IMG/VR virus record: IMGVR_UViG_3300042945_001153
Span: 1-26,751 of that record
From: a virus
Reading direction: 5' to 3' (one strand)
DNA length: 26,751 nt
Shown here: positions 2,160 through 26,751 of the stretch, one piece after another
Position numbering within the stretch: position 1 is the stretch's first letter
Layout of the letters: the number at the start of each line of letters is the position of its first letter
Program-made: the position numbers and the translations under genes
The notes under the pieces: model-generated
Told to the model about the DNA's origin: nothing
Seen by the model: the letters and a program-made list of their open reading frames with translations, nothing else
Databases searched by the model: none

Positions 2160-2906
2160 TTAAGCAAGTAATTTAGAAATTGTATCAGTTAAAAACTTAC
2201 CAACACCAACTTCACCAGCTTTAACCGCTGTTAGGGCAGCTTCAATACCAGCCATTACATTTGCACCTTGTGACGCCGCCTTTATAGCACCTGCACCGGA
2301 AGCAACTGCAAGAGAAGCAACAATAACAGTATGAACAACATTAGCAATCTTTTCTTGTTTATCTGATGGTAATTGTTTGAATCCAGGTATAAGTTGTAAT
2401 CCTTTCAAAATTAAAGCAGTAATTTTGTGATGCCATTTGTGACCAGCATGAATTAGTTTATCACCAGCTTTTCCAGTACCACCCAAAAGGATTGAAATAC
2501 TTTTTACAATCTTACCTATAAGTTGTACTATTGCTGGAACTGCAAGTGCAAGGGATGTTACAAACAATAATGTCAATTCTTCATTAACTGCTTGACGGGC
2601 TTTTCCTTCACTCAATGCTCTTTTTCTACGCTTTACAGATTCAGTTGCAATCTTAGCAAGTGCAGGTTGTTTTTTAAGAGCATCTTCAACTGCCTTTTCA
2701 TCATCTTTTTTCTTCTCAACATCAGCTCCAATTTTTCCAAAAGCAGCTTCCATATCTTTAGCAGCTTTTTCAAATGCCGCCATGACATCCTTTTCGTCTT
2801 GTGGATCAACCTCGTCTTCTTCTTTGAGATAACGAATAACTTCATTTCTAATGAGTCTCTTCAATTCAGACTCAGTAATAGTTGCTATTGTTTTTTTCTG
2901 TTTCAT
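2160..2906 (-). CDS. Candidate internal head protein with hydrophobic helices
   Basis: I place the start at ATG 2906 because GGAG lies six bases upstream; an in-frame ATG at 2918 has no ribosome site, and its following codon is part of that GGAG. The 248-residue product begins with a Ser/Thr-Leu-Lys-rich helix, TESELKRLIRNEVIRYLKEE (residues 11-30), resembling the N-terminus of the ADP-ribosyltransferase at 6025. A charged Ala/Lys/Glu coiled-coil-like part follows (about 35-85). The C-terminal half is hydrophobic, with segments at about 112-142 and 188-210 rich in Ala, Val, Ile and Gly. No enzyme motif is visible. The unit is bracketed by two terminators. I infer a head-packaged, membrane-active protein; a structural membrane or antitoxin-like role cannot be excluded. 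Confidence 0.6.
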   Translation of the reverse strand: MKQKKTIATITESELKRLIRNEVIRYLKEEDEVDPQDEKDVMAAFEKAAKDMEAAFGKIGADVEKKKDDEKAVEDALKKQPALAKIATESVKRRKRALSEGKARQAVNEELTLLFVTSLALAVPAIVQLIGKIVKSISILLGGTGKAGDKLIHAGHKWHHKITALILKGLQLIPGFKQLPSDKQEKIANVVHTVIVASLAVASGAGAIKAASQGANVMAGIEAALTAVKAGEVGVGKFLTDTISKLLA

Positions 2907-2982
2907 CAAACACTCCATTCATAAATTTCAAATGATATAATTTGCTTTAGAATAAATATCATATAAAAATAAAAAAAATAAA

Positions 2983-3010
2983 AAAGGAGTGAGAAAAATC
3001 TCACTCCTTT
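2983..3010 (-). terminator. Strong Rho-independent terminator after the capsid gene
   Basis: A perfect 12-bp inverted repeat (AAAGGAGTGAGA / TCTCACTCCTTT) with an AAAA loop begins 22 bases past the capsid stop. On the minus strand it runs into a long T-rich tract. It is the strongest terminator in the window and probably ends the head operon. Confidence 0.92.
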
Positions 3011-3032
3011 ATTTTGACTAACCCTGTTAAGA

Positions 3033-4685
3033 TTATATGTCACCAAGAGAATCGATTTGGATCAAACCGTAGAACTCAGGACGAACAATTTTCTTAGCAT
3101 AACGAGTCATCACGCCTTTTCTTGGTGTGAAGTTCGTTGGGTCGTATACCAATGGTGTCATTACAAGTGGAATGTATGGAGCATACACAGCACCAGTTTC
3201 GAGGAATTGTGTTCCACGGAAACCAACTAATACTTGGTTTTCAAGCATATATGGATTCTTGTAAACTGTGATACGGCCATTCAACTGACCAACTTTTTGA
3301 ACACCCATTGCGAATTTCATACCTTCACCATCAACTGCATAGCCAGGCATTGATTCAAGTATTGTAGCAACTTGTGGAGAACATACGAGGAAGTTTGCAC
3401 CACCACGAAGTGTTTTCTGATGAATTGTGTTAGATACTTTTTGAATCTTTGTGCCAAGTGTTTGGAACCAAGTTTGTTGGTTAAACGCAGAAGCAGCAGC
3501 TTGGTTTGTAGCATAATCACCGAATGAATTTGTAGCACCATCAAATGTGCGACCAATACGAGCAGACCACTTTTCTGTTGTTTGTGCATTCTTAATCAAC
3601 ATATCAAGAATTTCCAAATCAATTTCTTGTGAAATGTATTCAGAAAGCATAGATGTCAATTCAGCTTCTGCATCGATTGAGTGATATGCATTCAAGTCTT
3701 GTGCAAATTCAGGTGTCCATACTGCCTTCAACTTACGAGTTTTAGCAACGATGGATTCTGAACGCAATTCAAGATTGATTTCAGGAATAGCTGTTGTGTC
3801 AGCAAGTGCTGAACCTGTTGTGTCTTCAAAGTCACCACGGCTTGTAGCAGTAGGTTGCTTTTCGTATGTTACAACTGCATTACCTGGAACAGCAGATGCA
3901 GAAACAACAAATGTGATTTGTGAATTAGCTGCATTTGCAGTTGTGTATTGTGGGAAGTAACCCAAAATGTTTGAACCAGAAATCTTGAAAGCACGGATTG
4001 CCTCTGTATCATGTGTTGTCATTGATGCAGAAGATACTGTGATTGTGAAGATTTTACCACCTGCAAGAGATGCAGAGTAAGCATTCTGGAATTCTGTATC
4101 ATACTGATATGTTGCTGGTGTAGTATGTGATACTGAACCAGTTGCACAGTTTGTAGAATCAACTGTAGCAGCTGTTACAGTCAATGTAGCAGTTGCAGCT
4201 TCGTTGATAGAATAACCAAAACGACCTGCACCATAAAGACCGCCTGAAGGATCAGCGTCTTTTGCATCTTTACCAGTTACACCGAATACAGAGTCATTTT
4301 GTGAATCTTTACCGGCACCAGTTGTGAAACCAGGTTGTGCTGTACCATACTTGAAATCCAAGAAGAATACAAGACCAGAAGGCAAGTTCATTGGTTGAAC
4401 AGAAACGAAATCTTTCGCAGCAATTTCAGAGAAAATACGGCGAACCAATGGAAGTGCAACGCCAGCCCATTCTTCTGAACCAGCTGCTGTACCTGTTCTT
4501 GATGATTCATCGATAAGTTGTTTTGCCTGATTTTCGAGAAGAACTGCAATAGAGTTCTTTTCATATTCATTGTTCAAGTTATCAAGAAGACCTGTCTTTG
4601 CCCACTTATTGACAATCTGACGGTTTTCTTTGATAAGTGCTTTGTGGGGATTCCCAGAAGCATTTAAAATTGATTGTATACTCAT
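3033..4685 (-). CDS. 23: Major capsid protein, T4 gp23-like
   Basis: The 550-residue product is close to T4 gp23 in length (521). Its N-terminal 60 residues are a helical, charged propeptide. The sequence QLIDE/SSRTG (residues 56-65) offers an I-x-E site for the prohead protease, near the known T4 cut at residue 65. Core capsid patterns follow: EEWAGVALPLVRRIF (about 71-85), LDFKYG and, after an insertion, AKTRKLKAVWTPEFAQDL and QEIDLEILDMLI. The C-terminus ends RPEFYGLIQIDSLGDI, typical of the family. A Thr/Ser/Ala-rich stretch (about 160-290) probably corresponds to the surface insertion domain. ATG 4685 has AAGGAAA upstream, and the scaffold gene ends 20 bases before it. Confidence 0.93.
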   Translation of the reverse strand: MSIQSILNASGNPHKALIKENRQIVNKWAKTGLLDNLNNEYEKNSIAVLLENQAKQLIDESSRTGTAAGSEEWAGVALPLVRRIFSEIAAKDFVSVQPMNLPSGLVFFLDFKYGTAQPGFTTGAGKDSQNDSVFGVTGKDAKDADPSGGLYGAGRFGYSINEAATATLTVTAATVDSTNCATGSVSHTTPATYQYDTEFQNAYSASLAGGKIFTITVSSASMTTHDTEAIRAFKISGSNILGYFPQYTTANAANSQITFVVSASAVPGNAVVTYEKQPTATSRGDFEDTTGSALADTTAIPEINLELRSESIVAKTRKLKAVWTPEFAQDLNAYHSIDAEAELTSMLSEYISQEIDLEILDMLIKNAQTTEKWSARIGRTFDGATNSFGDYATNQAAASAFNQQTWFQTLGTKIQKVSNTIHQKTLRGGANFLVCSPQVATILESMPGYAVDGEGMKFAMGVQKVGQLNGRITVYKNPYMLENQVLVGFRGTQFLETGAVYAPYIPLVMTPLVYDPTNFTPRKGVMTRYAKKIVRPEFYGLIQIDSLGDI

Positions 4686-17805: not shown

Positions 17806-18552
17806 TTATTTTATTATTTCGTTGTAAACTTTATCCCAAAATTTTCGTGTAATCATGTGAAGTGGTCTTAACTCGCCTTCTTTTTTCTTTTCTACTTCTA
17901 TCATTTTACCACGGCGAGTATTGAATTTGGCAATAACTGAATTGAATATATCTGCATCAAACCAACCGAATATAGAAATGAATCTACTTTTCAGTTCGGT
18001 TAATTTTGCACTTCTATCTTCCAACGCCTTTCTTATTGATTTTGGATTCATTTCGCCAAATGACGGTATATCATATCTAACATGATTTGTGATGATATAG
18101 TATACATAAGGATTTTGAATATCTTTATACGGAAGTTTACTTGTTCCATTCCATCTCATTAGTCTCTTGTAATCTTTCAATTTAGAAACATCATCTTTAT
18201 CTACCGCATATATTACAATAGTATTTGAACTATCAAACTGTTCCAAAATTTCATTTGCATGAAATGGCATATTTGATTTCATAATATGTTTAACATTATG
18301 TCTTTTCATTATTGAATATTTTTCATCATACGATAAAGGTTTTTCTATTGAATCCATTGTTTCATCAGTTACAACAATAACATTATCTTTATCGAATTTA
18401 CGGCAAATTCTATCATATTCTTCACGATGATAAATTGCCATTGGTTGAAATTTACCAGGATATAAAACAACAACATCTTTATCTACCAACTCATTCTCAT
18501 TGAATATGGCAAGGTTCATTTCACGGATAAGTTTTAGAACAGGATTATTCAT
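17806..18552 (-). CDS. Nucleotidyltransferase-like protein with altered active site
   Basis: I start at ATG 18552 (GGAAG upstream); a TTG at 18579 is in frame but lacks support. The 248-residue product has VVLYPGKFQPMAIYHREEYD (about 22-41), DNVIVVTDET and LSYDEKYSIMKRHNV, then VIYAVDKDD. This is the layout of HxGH-type cytidylyltransferase-fold proteins, where GRFQPFHKGH is usual. Here the first His and the Gly of HxGH are replaced (AIYH), so activity is doubtful. The first 17 residues (NPVLKLIREMNLAIFNE) recall the N-terminal segment of other head candidates. It overlaps the previous gene by eight bases. Confidence 0.55.
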   Translation of the reverse strand: MNNPVLKLIREMNLAIFNENELVDKDVVVLYPGKFQPMAIYHREEYDRICRKFDKDNVIVVTDETMDSIEKPLSYDEKYSIMKRHNVKHIMKSNMPFHANEILEQFDSSNTIVIYAVDKDDVSKLKDYKRLMRWNGTSKLPYKDIQNPYVYYIITNHVRYDIPSFGEMNPKSIRKALEDRSAKLTELKSRFISIFGWFDADIFNSVIAKFNTRRGKMIEVEKKKEGELRPLHMITRKFWDKVYNEIIK

Positions 18553-19069
18553 TTGTTTCTTCCAATGGTGGCGGACCAAAAGGTGATGTTTCTGGTGCTT
18601 GAATTAACGGTTCAATACTACCAGGTTTTTCTGGCCACACTATTATCCAAGGATTTTCATAATTTGTTATGTCTCTTAATGCCTGACGATATATTTTCCA
18701 TGATTCTTTTTGTTGAGCAGTAAATGGAGCATCTTCTAATTGTGTCCAATCCGATTCTTTCAATTCAATATTTCTTCTTGATCTAACATTACCCCATTCA
18801 TTTATAGTCTCTGCTTGTATTTCATCAACTGTTTTTTCACGAACAAGTTCATGTTCTATAACCAAATCAGAAGTAATTTCAAATTCACTACCGTTGGATG
18901 CCCATTTTTCTGGTCTGGTTGTAGTATATCTATATTCATACGGATACCAACCAAACGATATTAAAGTTTGAATATCAAATTTATCAAAATTTGAAATATT
19001 ATTCCAAACATTAGGTAAAGGACGGTTAGCTTCTTTAACTATACCGCTTTCAACATAAGCATATTTCAT
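18545..19069 (-). CDS. Tail fibre assembly chaperone-like protein
   Basis: The 174-residue product has an N-terminal part with FGWYPYEYRYTT and a C-terminal segment ELKESDWTQLEDAPFTAQQK, WKIYRQALRDITN and PWIIVWPEKP (about 102-153). This matches the phage tail assembly chaperone pattern (SDWTQLPDAPLT..YRQALRDI..WP) found next to fibre genes. Such proteins help fold or attach tail fibres. It follows the RCC1 protein and glycosyltransferase cassette by gene order, which supports an adhesin role for that protein. ATG 19069 has no strong ribosome site. Confidence 0.78.
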   Translation of the reverse strand: MKYAYVESGIVKEANRPLPNVWNNISNFDKFDIQTLISFGWYPYEYRYTTTRPEKWASNGSEFEITSDLVIEHELVREKTVDEIQAETINEWGNVRSRRNIELKESDWTQLEDAPFTAQQKESWKIYRQALRDITNYENPWIIVWPEKPGSIEPLIQAPETSPFGPPPLEETNE

Positions 19070-20580: not shown

Positions 20581-21188
20581 AATAATTCCTCTTTTTTTTG
20601 GACTACCCAAGTTTGTTCTGCGTATTTATATGCAGGTGCCTTTATAGTGGTTACATTTCTTTTACCAAAGTATTCATCAACGGCATTACTAACAGATGGC
20701 CAGGCATAATCATCACCGGAAATATATCCACCAACTTTTAATTTTGGAAACCAATGTTCTACATCTTCTTTAACACTTTTGTAATCATGTGCACCGTCTA
20801 TGAAAATAAAATCTAAACTTCCATCTTCATATAGTTTAGATGCTTCAACCGAAGTCATTCTTATTGGATTTATTACAGATTTAATTGGGTATGTGTTTTG
20901 TATGAACTCATTGTATAAACCATTTGGTATTTCGAGTAGTGGTTCGTATGAATCATTGTTTTTATCCAAGTGTTCCGGTGAACCTAACCATGTATCTACA
21001 CAATCAAATTTAATTTTCTTACCGCTGTTGATTATTTCAACACCCATGTAGGTTGATGATTTTCCTTTCCAACTACCAACCTCTAAGAAATGGTATTCAT
21101 CTGTGTCATTACAAGATAAAACCATTTGAGTGAATAGATTTTCTTGTACAAACCATCCTGGAATAGAGAAGTAATAATGTTGAATCAT
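20577..21188 (-). CDS. Class I SAM-dependent methyltransferase
   Basis: The 203-residue product has the SAM site FLEVGSWKGKSS (about 34-45), a second-strand acidic FDCVDTW, and LDFIFIDGAHDYKSVKEDVE with LKVGGYISGDDY (about 122-156). This matches the Methyltransf_24 type, often found with sugar or lipid modification genes. The target cannot be told. Its ATG overlaps the previous stop by four bases and its stop overlaps the next start, so it is one unit with the glycosyltransferases. Methylation of a sugar residue is a plausible inference. Confidence 0.85.
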   Translation of the reverse strand: MIQHYYFSIPGWFVQENLFTQMVLSCNDTDEYHFLEVGSWKGKSSTYMGVEIINSGKKIKFDCVDTWLGSPEHLDKNNDSYEPLLEIPNGLYNEFIQNTYPIKSVINPIRMTSVEASKLYEDGSLDFIFIDGAHDYKSVKEDVEHWFPKLKVGGYISGDDYAWPSVSNAVDEYFGKRNVTTIKAPAYKYAEQTWVVQKKEELL

Positions 21189-22192
21189 TTTCCATATCCT
21201 TCTGCCAATTTAGTAAGTTCTTCACGAATTTTTTGGAAAGGTGCTTCCCATTCTCCATATTTTTCTTGTCTAAATAGTCTTACTGAATCATACCAATGTG
21301 ATTTATCACCTGGAACAACCCAAGTATAATAAGGCATGATTGGTGTAACTATCCAAGTTGGTATTCCCATAGCAGCAGAAAGGTGTGCAACCGATGTACA
21401 AGATGTTATTACTACATCACAACCTGCAATAATAGAGGCAGTATCTTCCCAAGTCTTCATTTGTTCACGCATATCACCAAATGGAAGACCATCTACGAGA
21501 TTTTCGTCTCTTTGTAAAGAATAAAATGTTGTATTTGGAATATCGTGAAGACCAATCATCAATTCTGGTGGGAATCTTCGGTGTTGTTCGTCTTCAAAGT
21601 CTGGTGAACCACTCCAACGAATACCAACCTTCAATGTACCCTTCTTAGAAAACAAATTTCTCTTTTCTTTTGGAAACATATAAGGTTTTCCATCTAAATC
21701 GTTTAATTCAACACCCAAAACATAAGGAGCAGACATAGCTGGAACCCAATAGTCATAGTGTGCACACATAATTACTTCATTATCAACACAAATGAAACCG
21801 TGACGGGAGAATATTTCTTTTAATTCGGGTGCACATGAGACTAAAACTCTTGCACCCATCTCCTCAAATTTCTTAGCGAAACGAAAATTAAGAATTTGGT
21901 CCCCATAACCTCCTTCACATCTGAAAAGAAGTGTTTTGCCCACAAGTGGTTCATTTTTCCATATCTTTCCTGGTAATGCTGGAAGACCGAACACATTGAT
22001 AAATCTACCATAATTGAAGTGTTCAAATGCTTTCATCATGTTACCGTGACGCATTTCATGCCAACCTAAATTAAACAGAACACGGTAGTCTGTTTGTGGT
22101 TCATTTCTTAAAATTTCTTCACTCAAATTTGGATTACCACCGATAGATGCTTCTAATGCAACATCAAGTGGATGCATTTTATTTTTATCCAT
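21185..22192 (-). CDS. Heptosyltransferase-like GT-B glycosyltransferase with TPR-like N-terminus
   Basis: I start at ATG 22192 with AAGG upstream; TTG 22198 is in frame but weaker. The 335-residue product has a helical N-terminus (NLGWHEMRHGNMMKAFEHFN) that looks like a TPR unit. LLFRCEGGYGDQILNFRFAK follows, and the C-terminal half has KVGIRWSGSPDFEDEQHRRF, FYSLQ, IAGCDVVITSCTSVAHLSAA and MGIPTWIV with a WYDSVRLFRQ end. This is the pattern of glycosyltransferase family 9/41-like proteins, which can act on proteins or sugars. It is the first gene after the RCC1 protein, 70 bases downstream. No membrane anchor is visible. Confidence 0.82.
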   Translation of the reverse strand: MDKNKMHPLDVALEASIGGNPNLSEEILRNEPQTDYRVLFNLGWHEMRHGNMMKAFEHFNYGRFINVFGLPALPGKIWKNEPLVGKTLLFRCEGGYGDQILNFRFAKKFEEMGARVLVSCAPELKEIFSRHGFICVDNEVIMCAHYDYWVPAMSAPYVLGVELNDLDGKPYMFPKEKRNLFSKKGTLKVGIRWSGSPDFEDEQHRRFPPELMIGLHDIPNTTFYSLQRDENLVDGLPFGDMREQMKTWEDTASIIAGCDVVITSCTSVAHLSAAMGIPTWIVTPIMPYYTWVVPGDKSHWYDSVRLFRQEKYGEWEAPFQKIREELTKLAEGYGK

Positions 22193-22262
22193 AAACAAAA
22201 CCTTTTATTTTTAATATGTTAATTACAAATATACACTTTTTATACCAAATAACCAAATTATT

Positions 22263-25200
22263 TTATTGGGTATATTCTTTAACCAGTATTGTATGAGAAA
22301 CACCAGTTGATGGAAACTTCCAATTACTTAAAGTTCCAATTTGAACAGGCGATGATCGATTGATTGAATCATTATGTCCAAGTTGTCCATTTGTATTCAA
22401 ACCCCAACTCCATATAGTACCATTCGATTTTCTCGCAACAGTATATTGTGATCCAACTGATATGGTTGTATCACCCCAACTTGTGTTAAAATCTCCAACT
22501 TGTGTTGGTGAAGATCTAGCTGTATTGAATGTTAGAACTTGACCAAGTACAGCAGCAGAATTTATACCCCAAGATGCAAGTGTTCCATCGTTTAGTAATG
22601 CAATACCGTGATTTTCTCCAAGAGATCCGGATGCAAAATCGGTTCTTGTTCCAATTTGAACTGGTGATGATCTAGCATTTATTGTAATTTCACCTTGGCC
22701 ATTTTGACCGTTAGAATTCAATCCCCATGACCATAATGTACCATCGGTTTTTCTTGCCAATGCAGATCCGAAAACAACCGATCCACCATCTTCGCCTGGA
22801 AATACATCTGACCAATTAGTTAGTGTACCAATTTGAACCGGCGATGACCTGTTTGTGGTAGAGTTATTTTGTGCCAGTTGTCCATAATTATTATTTCCCC
22901 AACCCCAAAGTGTACCGTCTGTTTTGACTGCAAGTGTAAAATAACCACCACCTTGAACCTTTGACCAATTAGTTAAAGTACCAATTTGCACAGGTGAACT
23001 AACTCCGGTTGTAGTATTTCGTCCACCTTCACCTCTAACAGAAGCACCCCATGTCCATAATGTACCATCTGACCTTACTGCCATAGAATGATTTGATCCA
23101 GCACCAATCCATGTCCAATCATTACGAGTTCCAATTTGAACAGGAGATGAACGATTTATTGAGGTTGCAATATTCTGACCAAGTTCTCCGTTTCCATTGA
23201 ATCCCCATGACCAAATAGTTCCATCTGTTTTAAGTGCTAATGCATGATTATTACCAACAGCAAGTGTAGACCAATTAACAAGTGTTCCTATTTGAACAGG
23301 TGAAGATTTTGCGGTAGCAGTACCATCACCAAGTTGTCCAAAAGTATTGAATCCCCATGACCATAGAGTACCATTTGTTTTTATTGACATGGTATAACGA
23401 AATGCAGCAAATACTTTTGACCAATTATTTAGAGTTCCAATTTGAACTGGTGATGATGTTGTTGATGTAGTATTACCTATACCGAGTTGTCCATCAGAGT
23501 TTTGACCCCAACCCCATAGAGTCCCATTGTCTGAAACTGCCATTGAATGTGAACCACCGGCTGATAGGTTAGTGAACTTTCTCTGTGTCATTACTCTGGC
23601 AATTTCTGAAGCAGGATGAAATATACCAAGTTGATGATTGAGTGCATATCCCCATGCCCATAATGTGCCGTCTGACCTAGTAGCAAAACCTATTGTAAAT
23701 GCACTCGGAGTACCTTGAGAAATATCAGTCCAATCGCTCCTTGTTCCAATTTGAACAGGAGAAGATCTAGTAACACTAGTATTGTCACCAACACCTCCTT
23801 GACTATTATCACCCCAACCCCATAGAGTTCCAGTTGTTGTTATTGCATACGAAACATCTGCACCTGCACTAATTTTACTCCAGTTTGTATTACCACCTAC
23901 TTGAACTGGAGAGTTCCGAGTAAAAGGTGATGTTATATTTTGACCAAGTTCACCTGTTCCATTATATCCCCATGACCATAGAGTACCATCATTTTTCAAA
24001 GCAAGTACATGAGCATATCCAGCTGAAATTTTTGTCCAAGTATTAAGTGTTCCAATTTGAACTGGTGAAGATTTGTTAATGCCAGTCCCATCACCTAGTG
24101 AAGCAAGATTATTATTTCCCCATGACCACATAGTACCATCCGATTTCAGTGCAATAGTATGTGAAGCACCACATGATGCAGATACCCATGTTGTAAGTGT
24201 CCCAATTTGAACAGGTGAATTTTTAGTAACAACTGTGCCGTCTCCTAACTGACCTTGTGTATTAAAACCGAATGCCCAAAGACTACCACTTTGACTTATT
24301 GCAATCGTATGGGATCCACCAGCAGAAACCGATTTCCAACTGGAAAGTGTTCCAATTTGTACTGGAGATATTGCATTAAAACTATAACCAGTATTAAATT
24401 GACTAGTATTTCCAGATGAATATAATTTACCAGTTGTATCTATTGCGAATGTAGTACCTTCTCCTACAAAAATATTTCTCCATGATAAATCAGATCTAAG
24501 TTGTATCGGTGATGACTTACTTATTAGAGTACCATCTCCTAACTGACCTTGTGAGTTATTAACTCCCCATCCCCATAGGGTATTATCGGTTCTTATTGCA
24601 AGTACCGCATTGAATCCAACAGCTGCTGATTGAACATTTGACCAATCATTACGAGTTCCAATTTGAACGGGTGAAGATCTATTAACAGTTGTATTATCTC
24701 CCACTTCACCAGAACTACCTCTACCCCAACCCCATAGAGTACCGTCTGTTTTTATTGCATGTGTATTTGCACTGGCAGCAGTTATTCTTGACCAATTATT
24801 GAGAGTTCCAATTTGAACTGGCGAATATAACGGAGCAACAGCATTAGCAGAATCTAATGTATTGTCTCCTCTAGCACCGTTTGGATTTGCACCCCATGCC
24901 CATAGAGTACCATTAGTTTGAACAGCCATTGTGTGTGATGTTCCAACTGATACCCTTGACCAATTAGTTAGTGTACCAATTTGAACAGGTGATGATAAAA
25001 GATTCGGTCTTCCTAAGAATAAATGAATACCTACCGAGTATAAACCACCTGGAGAATTTGTTGCAAACATTGCATTGGAATTTATATCGGCAGTAAGCCA
25101 ATTATTAAGTGTTCCAATTTGAACTGGACTTGAACGACTGATAAATGTACCATCACCGAGTTGTGCGTTTATATTATATCCCCATGCCCATAGAGTACCA

Positions 25201-26630
25201 TCTGTTTTTATTGCCAAAGATGATCTTAAACCGGCAAATATTTTTGACCAAGTATTAAGTGTTCCAATTTGAACTGGTGATGATCTATGAGAATTTACAA
25301 ATGCAATATTCCCAATTCCTAACTGACCTGCATCATTATTACCCCATGACCAAATAGTTCCATCCGTCTTTAATCCGAGTACATGGGTATTAACAGAAAC
25401 AGATGCCCAATTTGTTTCAGTACCAAGTTGAACAGGTGATGATCGGTATGCAAAACCAGAGGTATTATTTCCTAAATTCCCATAATTATTTTGACCCCAA
25501 ATCCAAAGTGTTCCATCTGTTTTGATTGCAGCAGTATTAGAATAACTAAAATCGTTTTTTGTTGTGGATGCACTTGACCAATTATTAAGAGTTCCAATTT
25601 GAACAGGCGAAGATTTATTAACGCCAGTATTATCACCTAATTGGCCATTATTATTTGAACCCCAAGCCCAGAGTGTTCCGTCTGTTCTAATAGCAATCGT
25701 ATGTTCATTACCAGAATAAACATTATTCCAAGTTCTCGTTCCAATTTGTACGGGCGATGATTTGTTTGAAGTAGTATTATCACCCAATTTACCACTACTC
25801 GCCTGTCCCCAACCCCACATAGTACCGTCTGTTTTTATTGCCATATTATGGTTTGATCCAGCCGATACCTTTGACCAAGTATTCAAAAGTCCTATTTGAA
25901 CAGGTGAGTATTTATTATTTGCACTTCCTATTGGTCCTTGTCCAATTTGACCTAAGTTATTTTGTCCCCATGACCACATAGTTCCATCATTTTTTAATGC
26001 AATAGTATGTGATGTTCCAGTTGAAGCAGAAACCCAAGTTGTACCACCATCTATTGGCAAAAGTTCTATTGAGGAAGAACCCCACCCCAACATACCGTAT
26101 CTATGATCACCCATACCCCATAAAGTACCATCACTCCTTATCATCATCGAGACACCTACACCTGTGCTAATATCACCGGTCCAAGTATTCAATGTTCCAA
26201 CTTGAACTGGACTTGAACGGAGTGTAAAATCATTTAATCCTAATTGACCACTGACATTTTGACCCCATGACCAAAGTGTACCGTTAGTTCTCGTTGCAAT
26301 CGTATGGTAGTCTCGTGATGATACATTATACCAGGTGTTTAATGTTCCAACTTGTACCGGTGAAGATCTATTAACCACATCACCGAGTTGACCAAAAGCA
26401 TTACCACCCCATGACCATAGAGTTCCGTTTGATTGTATTGCAAAACCATGTTGAGAACCAGCAGAACCAGATACCCATGTAGTTGCAGTTCCAACTTGTA
26501 AAAAATTATATTGTGATAAACTATTATCTAATTGTCCAAACTGAAAACTACCCATACCCCACATTTCAGTAAATGTTGTTGGTGGAACAGGTGGTGTTTT
26601 TCTAGCATTTGTTAAAATATCTTTAATCAT
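22263..26630 (-). CDS. Giant RCC1-repeat beta-propeller protein, putative adhesin
   Basis: The 1455-residue protein begins MIKDILTNARKTPPVPPTTF and is otherwise made of about 50-residue RCC1-type units of the form W-S-x-V-S-A-G-x-x-H-T-x-A-I-K-x-D-G-T-L-W, then WGxNxxGQLGDxT and SSPVQIGTLN. I count 27 complete units by eye, plus a half unit at the N-terminus (MWGMGSFQFGQL) and a half at the C-terminus (WKFPSTGVSHTILV). Joined, they give 28 blades, equal to four seven-bladed propellers. There is no signal peptide or membrane segment. Its place before a fibre chaperone-like gene and after a possible fibre gene suggests a tail adhesin. AAGG precedes ATG 26630. Binding partners are unknown. Confidence 0.85.
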   Translation of the reverse strand: MIKDILTNARKTPPVPPTTFTEMWGMGSFQFGQLDNSLSQYNFLQVGTATTWVSGSAGSQHGFAIQSNGTLWSWGGNAFGQLGDVVNRSSPVQVGTLNTWYNVSSRDYHTIATRTNGTLWSWGQNVSGQLGLNDFTLRSSPVQVGTLNTWTGDISTGVGVSMMIRSDGTLWGMGDHRYGMLGWGSSSIELLPIDGGTTWVSASTGTSHTIALKNDGTMWSWGQNNLGQIGQGPIGSANNKYSPVQIGLLNTWSKVSAGSNHNMAIKTDGTMWGWGQASSGKLGDNTTSNKSSPVQIGTRTWNNVYSGNEHTIAIRTDGTLWAWGSNNNGQLGDNTGVNKSSPVQIGTLNNWSSASTTKNDFSYSNTAAIKTDGTLWIWGQNNYGNLGNNTSGFAYRSSPVQLGTETNWASVSVNTHVLGLKTDGTIWSWGNNDAGQLGIGNIAFVNSHRSSPVQIGTLNTWSKIFAGLRSSLAIKTDGTLWAWGYNINAQLGDGTFISRSSPVQIGTLNNWLTADINSNAMFATNSPGGLYSVGIHLFLGRPNLLSSPVQIGTLTNWSRVSVGTSHTMAVQTNGTLWAWGANPNGARGDNTLDSANAVAPLYSPVQIGTLNNWSRITAASANTHAIKTDGTLWGWGRGSSGEVGDNTTVNRSSPVQIGTRNDWSNVQSAAVGFNAVLAIRTDNTLWGWGVNNSQGQLGDGTLISKSSPIQLRSDLSWRNIFVGEGTTFAIDTTGKLYSSGNTSQFNTGYSFNAISPVQIGTLSSWKSVSAGGSHTIAISQSGSLWAFGFNTQGQLGDGTVVTKNSPVQIGTLTTWVSASCGASHTIALKSDGTMWSWGNNNLASLGDGTGINKSSPVQIGTLNTWTKISAGYAHVLALKNDGTLWSWGYNGTGELGQNITSPFTRNSPVQVGGNTNWSKISAGADVSYAITTTGTLWGWGDNSQGGVGDNTSVTRSSPVQIGTRSDWTDISQGTPSAFTIGFATRSDGTLWAWGYALNHQLGIFHPASEIARVMTQRKFTNLSAGGSHSMAVSDNGTLWGWGQNSDGQLGIGNTTSTTSSPVQIGTLNNWSKVFAAFRYTMSIKTNGTLWSWGFNTFGQLGDGTATAKSSPVQIGTLVNWSTLAVGNNHALALKTDGTIWSWGFNGNGELGQNIATSINRSSPVQIGTRNDWTWIGAGSNHSMAVRSDGTLWTWGASVRGEGGRNTTTGVSSPVQIGTLTNWSKVQGGGYFTLAVKTDGTLWGWGNNNYGQLAQNNSTTNRSSPVQIGTLTNWSDVFPGEDGGSVVFGSALARKTDGTLWSWGLNSNGQNGQGEITINARSSPVQIGTRTDFASGSLGENHGIALLNDGTLASWGINSAAVLGQVLTFNTARSSPTQVGDFNTSWGDTTISVGSQYTVARKSNGTIWSWGLNTNGQLGHNDSINRSSPVQIGTLSNWKFPSTGVSHTILVKEYTQ
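22270..26570 (-). repeat. RCC1-coding repeat array (about 150-base units)
   Basis: About 28 units recur, each with the plus-strand string GTTCCAATTTGAAC or a one- to two-base variant (coding VQIGT) and a nearby CCCCATGACCA-type string (coding WSWG). The VQIGT codons are nearly fixed between units while other parts differ. Confidence 0.85.
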
Positions 26631-26639
26631 AGTATAACC

Positions 26640-26751
26640 TTAGAAGTTTTGTGAACCAATAAAACCATACCAATTTGTACCTTGATTGAGTGAAATGAAT
26701 CCATAAAAATCCTTTTTACCGTTTGTACTTGTAACTGTTGGGGCAGTTCCA
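26640..26751 (-). CDS. Possible fibre or structural protein, C-terminal end (partial)
   Basis: The last 36 residues end NWYGFIGSQNF with a TAA at 26640-26642. The frame is open to the window edge. It is rich in Gly, Thr, Asn and aromatic residues, as in phage fibre tips, but too short to assign. Its stop lies ten bases upstream of the RCC1 gene start, so the two are probably co-transcribed. Confidence 0.5.
   Translation of the reverse strand, partial: GTAPTVTSTNGKKDFYGFISLNQGTNWYGFIGSQNF

Follow-up and report, generated by a model that had tools for sequence, protein, structure and literature searches.

A viral protein of 28 contiguous RCC1 units, very probably a linkerless chain of four seven-bladed propellers carried with the tail fibres of a T4-like phage

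The window, by which we mean the whole stretch of 26,751 nucleotides that was analysed, is IMG/VR virus record IMGVR_UViG_3300042945_001153. It is a 26.7 kb virus fragment with T4-type Gp23 capsid, Gp20 portal and terminase genes. Among isolates, Microcystis phage Mel-JY01 has the closest capsid protein (70%). The gene under study coincides exactly with an ORF that is read on the minus strand, from 26630 to 22263 (Table 1). It is located among tail-fibre genes. Directly upstream is a collagen tail fibre gene that ends nine bases before it, and the last 36 residues encoded there match the C-terminus of the collagen-repeat tail fibre of a relative, L174. Downstream, the gene for a 337-residue protein is followed by those for a methyltransferase, a glycosyltransferase and a tail fibre assembly chaperone. 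Matches of the 337-residue protein to glycosyltransferase family 9 are weak (10 of 11 orthologues, best E=4e-4), and a search of solved structures with it returned no significant match. This glycosyltransferase-9-like protein may modify the fibre.

Table 1. Features at and around the RCC1 gene (positions in the window)
Feature	Position	Strand	Basis
3' end of preceding gene (...GKKDFYGFISLNQGTNWYGFIGSQNF*)	26640..26750	minus	C-terminus of the collagen-repeat tail fibre of L174
RCC1 ORF, 1455 aa, 28 RCC1 units	22263..26630	minus	ORF, Pfam, segmentation, cyclic-profile parser
N-terminal tail, 21 residues (MIKDILTNARKTPPVPPTTFT)	26568..26630	minus	partly conserved among 28-unit relatives
Putative propeller 1, units 1-7, residues 22-371	25518..26567	minus	unit table, counted from the N-terminus
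Putative propeller 2, units 8-14, residues 372-732	24435..25517	minus	unit table
Putative propeller 3, units 15-21, residues 733-1085	23376..24434	minus	unit table
Putative propeller 4, units 22-28, residues 1086-1455	22266..23375	minus	unit table
337-aa protein, weak glycosyltransferase family 9 match, directly downstream	21185..22198	minus	profile matches
Tail fibre assembly chaperone (Phage_tail_APC), same cluster as the RCC1 gene	18545..19069	minus	Pfam

The 1455-residue protein consists almost entirely of RCC1 repeats (Pfam RCC1, E=2e-194; WD40_RLD, the RCC1-like domain, E=4e-268). It scores 630 bits against the RCC1 family profile PF00415, whose curated cut-off is 21.7, and 24 of the 26 matched units are above this cut-off. 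Segmentation by hand gave 28 units, from residues 22-67 for the first to residues 1403-1455 for the last. A cyclic-profile parser, with no preset unit number and with a profile built partly from relatives and the protein itself, also returned 28 units, each above 50 bits. A strict per-unit motif count was dropped as a counting method because it misses degenerate blades. All 28 units are complete when read in the phase DGTLWxWG...NWxxVSAGxxHTxAIKT. The SPVQIG phase gives 27 full units and two complementary halves, which is equivalent. Both methods thus bear out the preliminary description, which had counted 27 full units plus end halves, or 28 blades, and would have been contradicted by a total not divisible by seven; 28 is 4 x 7. 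It had also called a protein of 1455 residues made almost wholly of RCC1 units in a phage tail region unusual. Far larger ones exist, with 56 units in 2873 residues and about 91 units in 5017 residues.

The units leave out no more than residues 1-21 and a few residues at the C-terminus, and the N-terminal tail is a possible attachment peptide. The mean identity between units is about 44%. Units seven positions apart are no more alike than other units, and the protein is therefore not the product of recent copying of a seven-unit block. The junction between units 14 and 15 reads AIDT/TGKLYSSG and is devoid of the usual DGTLW turn; it is also altered in the relatives L185 and L046. The total of 28 is kept in L174 and L009, which are 84% and 97% identical to the protein, respectively. 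Unit 26 of L009 is short by about 22 residues inside the blade, which is either a real deletion or an assembly collapse.

Units were counted in complete ORFs from some 330 fetched loci. The commonest count in viral RCC1 proteins is seven. Among non-redundant viral arrays of at least nine units, 47 of 58 are exact multiples of seven, compared with about 8 expected (binomial p ~8e-30, with related proteins treated as independent). These comprise arrays of 14 (24 cases), 21 (12), 28 (6), 35 (1), 42 (2), 49 (1) and 56 units (1). The pattern is strict at the syntenic locus, defined by an RCC1 gene directly before the conserved 337-residue glycosyltransferase-like neighbour and restricted to complete ORFs. 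All 36 complete RCC1 proteins there have 7, 14, 21, 28, 35, 42, 49 or 56 units, a count that accepts units of at least 20 bits, on which the divergent member L214 depends. In the 28 complete arrays whose neighbour has an identity of 60% or more, every count is a multiple of seven, from 14 to 56 with each multiple in between represented. The 56-unit viral protein (L310 8326-16944, the same as L029 from 2436 on) is at this locus. The largest array, encoded on the plus strand of L242 from 4154, amounts to 91 units (13 x 7) if one split unit is merged and the tail left out. Strict sevens at a single gene position, from one to eight rings, point to selection for whole propellers in these genes.

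We inspected the 11 arrays that are not multiples of seven. Two reach 56 and 28 units when their degenerate first unit is included (L179 and L194, respectively), L012 is cut by a contig end, and L158 and L333 are single rings with other N-terminal domains. The exceptions that appear real are L188, L192, L183 and L209, with 40, 26, 19 and 19 units, all 5 modulo 7, and L162 with 27 units. The clade of the first four (L188 742, L192 11172, L183 11863 and L209 1653) has an irregular unit of about 64 residues with a B-strand-like start. The two non-multiples listed at the syntenic locus are a contig-edge fragment, L012, and a broken ORF, L011. In L011, a close relative, the RCC1 frame is split into ORFs 3-2480 and 2413-3252, by a frameshift or a sequencing error.

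Instead of selection for closure, the totals could reflect the copying of entire blocks of seven units. Units seven apart are slightly more similar in some 14-unit proteins, consistent with such copying. This signal is absent from the 1455-residue protein, and a comparison of two longer arrays at the syntenic locus also argues against it. L175 (2953-9378) has 42 units and occurs in identical form in three contigs; L178 (3092-10546) has 49. The counterparts of L175 units 6-13 in L178 are units 17-24, an offset of 11, which is not a multiple of seven. DNA identity is 80.8% at this offset, compared with 67.5% at the same positions (offset 0). Eight blades have shifted by 11 while the totals are still 42 and 49, indicating that blades can move out of ring phase with the totals kept at multiples of seven. 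This one clear case favours selection for closed rings over simple block copying, which we regard as unlikely.

Since blocks of blades can be shuffled out of phase, selection appears to act on the total blade count and not through whole-ring copying. We tentatively extend this idea to a class of linkerless poly-propeller fibres in phages whose length is quantised. Blades would be shuffled freely, only totals that are multiples of seven, up to 13 rings, would survive, and the register of the rings would follow from the count starting at the N-terminus, with no such information in individual blades. The extension is plausible, if somewhat short of what we would expect to hold. If true, these arrays would show, as an experiment in natural recombination, how the evolution of repeats is constrained by propeller closure, and they would represent a novel modular architecture for receptor binding. 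The set of arrays is a rare natural test of propeller closure, of which blade totals survive recombination.

Relatives in which foreign segments interrupt the array indicate where rings end, and in the clearest of them the interruptions follow multiples of seven units. L138 encodes, from 2913, a protein of 2461 residues with RCC1 units arranged 7/7/7/7 and split by long collagen-like TGETGTTG segments. L160 has 7/7/7 units, and its interrupting segments are Ig-like by eye. Linkers follow seven units in L232 (7/7) and in the cellular L249 and L289 (7/7), and in Clostridioides phage ES-S-0173-01 spacers are present after units 7, 14 and 21. With the automatic parser, linkers in the very long or divergent L242, L230, L195 and L212 do not sort cleanly into sevens. 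Every seven-unit block of L138 and L160 starts and ends in the half-unit phase, which indicates that each block closes by itself. Single-ring relatives, with seven units, have the same half-unit phase at both termini as the 1455-residue protein, so that its terminal halves represent the ordinary closure phase of one ring. The arrangement of L138 resembles a beads-on-a-string fibre with four seven-unit RCC1 rings.

The contiguous arrays contain no boundary insertions; the length of the presumed ring junctions is constant and the same as that of other junctions. First units of inner rings differ modestly in sequence, as judged from related sequences. They have tyrosine at column 5 in 20% of cases, compared with 6% elsewhere, and the turn [DN]GT[LMI]W in 46%, compared with 65% elsewhere (p=4e-4). 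A covariation test for ring closure lacked power, as it failed to pick up closure in single-ring proteins as well.

Taken with the multiples of seven in relatives, the terminal halves of single-ring proteins and the linkers after 7, 14 and 21 units indicate that the 28 units most likely form four propellers. We consider it very probable that the protein is a linkerless chain of four complete seven-bladed RCC1-type beta-propellers. The chain is most likely borne by tail fibres of a T4-like phage, where the array would serve in adhesion or receptor binding. While the 28 units and the rule of sevens across relatives are observed, closure of the rings is inferred from this rule, the single-ring relatives, the linker positions and the established fold of RCC1, UVR8 and HERC. 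The rings would comprise units 1-7, 8-14, 15-21 and 22-28, in a row without linkers, with membership set by counting from the N-terminus. Each ring would most likely close on itself, its own first half unit joined with its own last. By sequence, the best relatives of solved structure are UVR8, HERC and RCC1, with E down to 6.7e-56. AlphaFold models of units 1-23 and 6-28, two phases of the array, had mean pLDDT of 35 and 37, too low for a usable model, with a shallow alignment of eight relatives.

One of the readings offered in the preliminary description was four propellers in a row with closure shared between the ends of the whole chain. Its first part is supported by the comparative counts (36/36, 28/28 and 47/58) and by the linkers after 7, 14 and 21 units. 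Its second part is not supported. In such an arrangement, three rings would be built of sequential blades and a fourth would be closed by the two ends of the chain, the first half pairing with the last. The arithmetic is equally good, and the unchanged length at the presumed boundaries of contiguous arrays would agree with it. However, single seven-unit relatives carry the same terminal halves, and the blocks of L138 and L160 are self-contained. In addition, the odd residues of the first units of inner rings occur at the start of units 8, 15 and 22 (columns 3, 5 and 18), and not at the D/A junction that shared closure requires. We therefore consider shared closure quite unlikely.

The gene position suggests that the protein is tail-fibre-associated, with a probably adhesive function. 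RCC1 genes are also found among tail-fibre genes in isolates, including Clostridioides phages LIBA6276 and phiCDIF1296T and Synechococcus phages S-SRM01 and BUCT-ZZ01. For a distant relative, the RCC1-like protein GAP_001 of phage GAP32, presence in virions has been reported from mass spectrometry (PMC5259590). Together with gene order, this makes a tail-fibre location most likely. Adhesion is the weakest step, and is reasonably likely. The sequence of the RCC1 gene changes very fast, whereas the adjoining 337-residue protein is highly conserved, with 73-97% identity where the RCC1 gene next to it has 28 to 56 units. Ring number thus evolves fast beside a near-constant neighbour, as expected for parts involved in host recognition.

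The guanine nucleotide exchange and chromatin-binding functions of RCC1 are not expected to carry over to the phage protein; to our knowledge, a bacterial host has no Ran and no nucleosome. DNA packing is one published guess for the function of phage RCC1-like proteins. It was raised by the phAPEC6 authors as a possibility, based on the eukaryotic name, that these proteins organise DNA in an inner body or condense it (PMC7247149), and the PHROG category, nucleic-acid metabolism, follows from name transfer. For the protein described here such a role is very unlikely, as the gene is located in tail-fibre clusters across distant phages and changes very fast beside its highly conserved neighbour.

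The seven-bladed fold of RCC1, UVR8 and HERC domains is well established. RCC1-like domains (RCC1, UVR8 and the RLDs of HERC1/HERC2; PF00415, PF25390) share with the 1455-residue protein a unit of about 50 residues, and in these domains seven units make a closed ring. They form one ring per domain, and in HERC2 other domains separate the rings, whereas the phage protein has four sets of seven without linkers. A single large superhelix, open or closed, with about seven units per turn and no separate rings, would suit blocks that are not separated by linkers. It is highly improbable, since single seven-unit relatives occur in the same phages, the well-characterised RCC1-type relatives are seven-bladed rings and other totals would not be forbidden; the large ring or superhelix of the preliminary description is not needed and leaves the multiples of seven unexplained.

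RCC1 repeats, tandem RCC1 domains, phage RCC1 genes and long blade arrays in other propeller families are already known; linkerless RCC1 arrays of such size with totals in multiples of seven appear to be new. We found no description of them in the literature searched, which under-represents subscription journals, and no account of such arrays in the literature on phage RCC1 tail fibres and receptor binding. Tandem WD40 propellers include 15 blades arranged as 7+8 and 47 blades in a Penicillium NACHT protein (Pereira and Lupas 2022, PMC9218822). These highly repetitive propellers resemble the RCC1 arrays in build, with long uninterrupted rows of blades, amplified from single blades. However, their blades are nearly identical and the totals described for them do not follow multiples of a single number, whereas the RCC1 blades are about 44% identical and their totals are almost always multiples of seven.

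Other phage RCC1-like proteins (PHROGs 7220, 4219 and 16766; GAP32 GAP_001; eleven in phAPEC6; Clostridioides phages) have the repeat in common with the protein. Several share its tail-fibre neighbourhood, and one is reported to be present in virions (PMC5259590). The nearest isolate in build is Clostridioides phage ES-S-0173-01 (7+7+7+about 4), but its rings are separated by linkers. RCC1-like genes of jumbo coliphages mostly encode one ring per gene, compared with a probable four here. In the stretches shown of the jumbo phages Hallingskeid (L341 2690-9837) and UB (L342 9375-23583), single-ring RCC1-like genes are arranged in rows.
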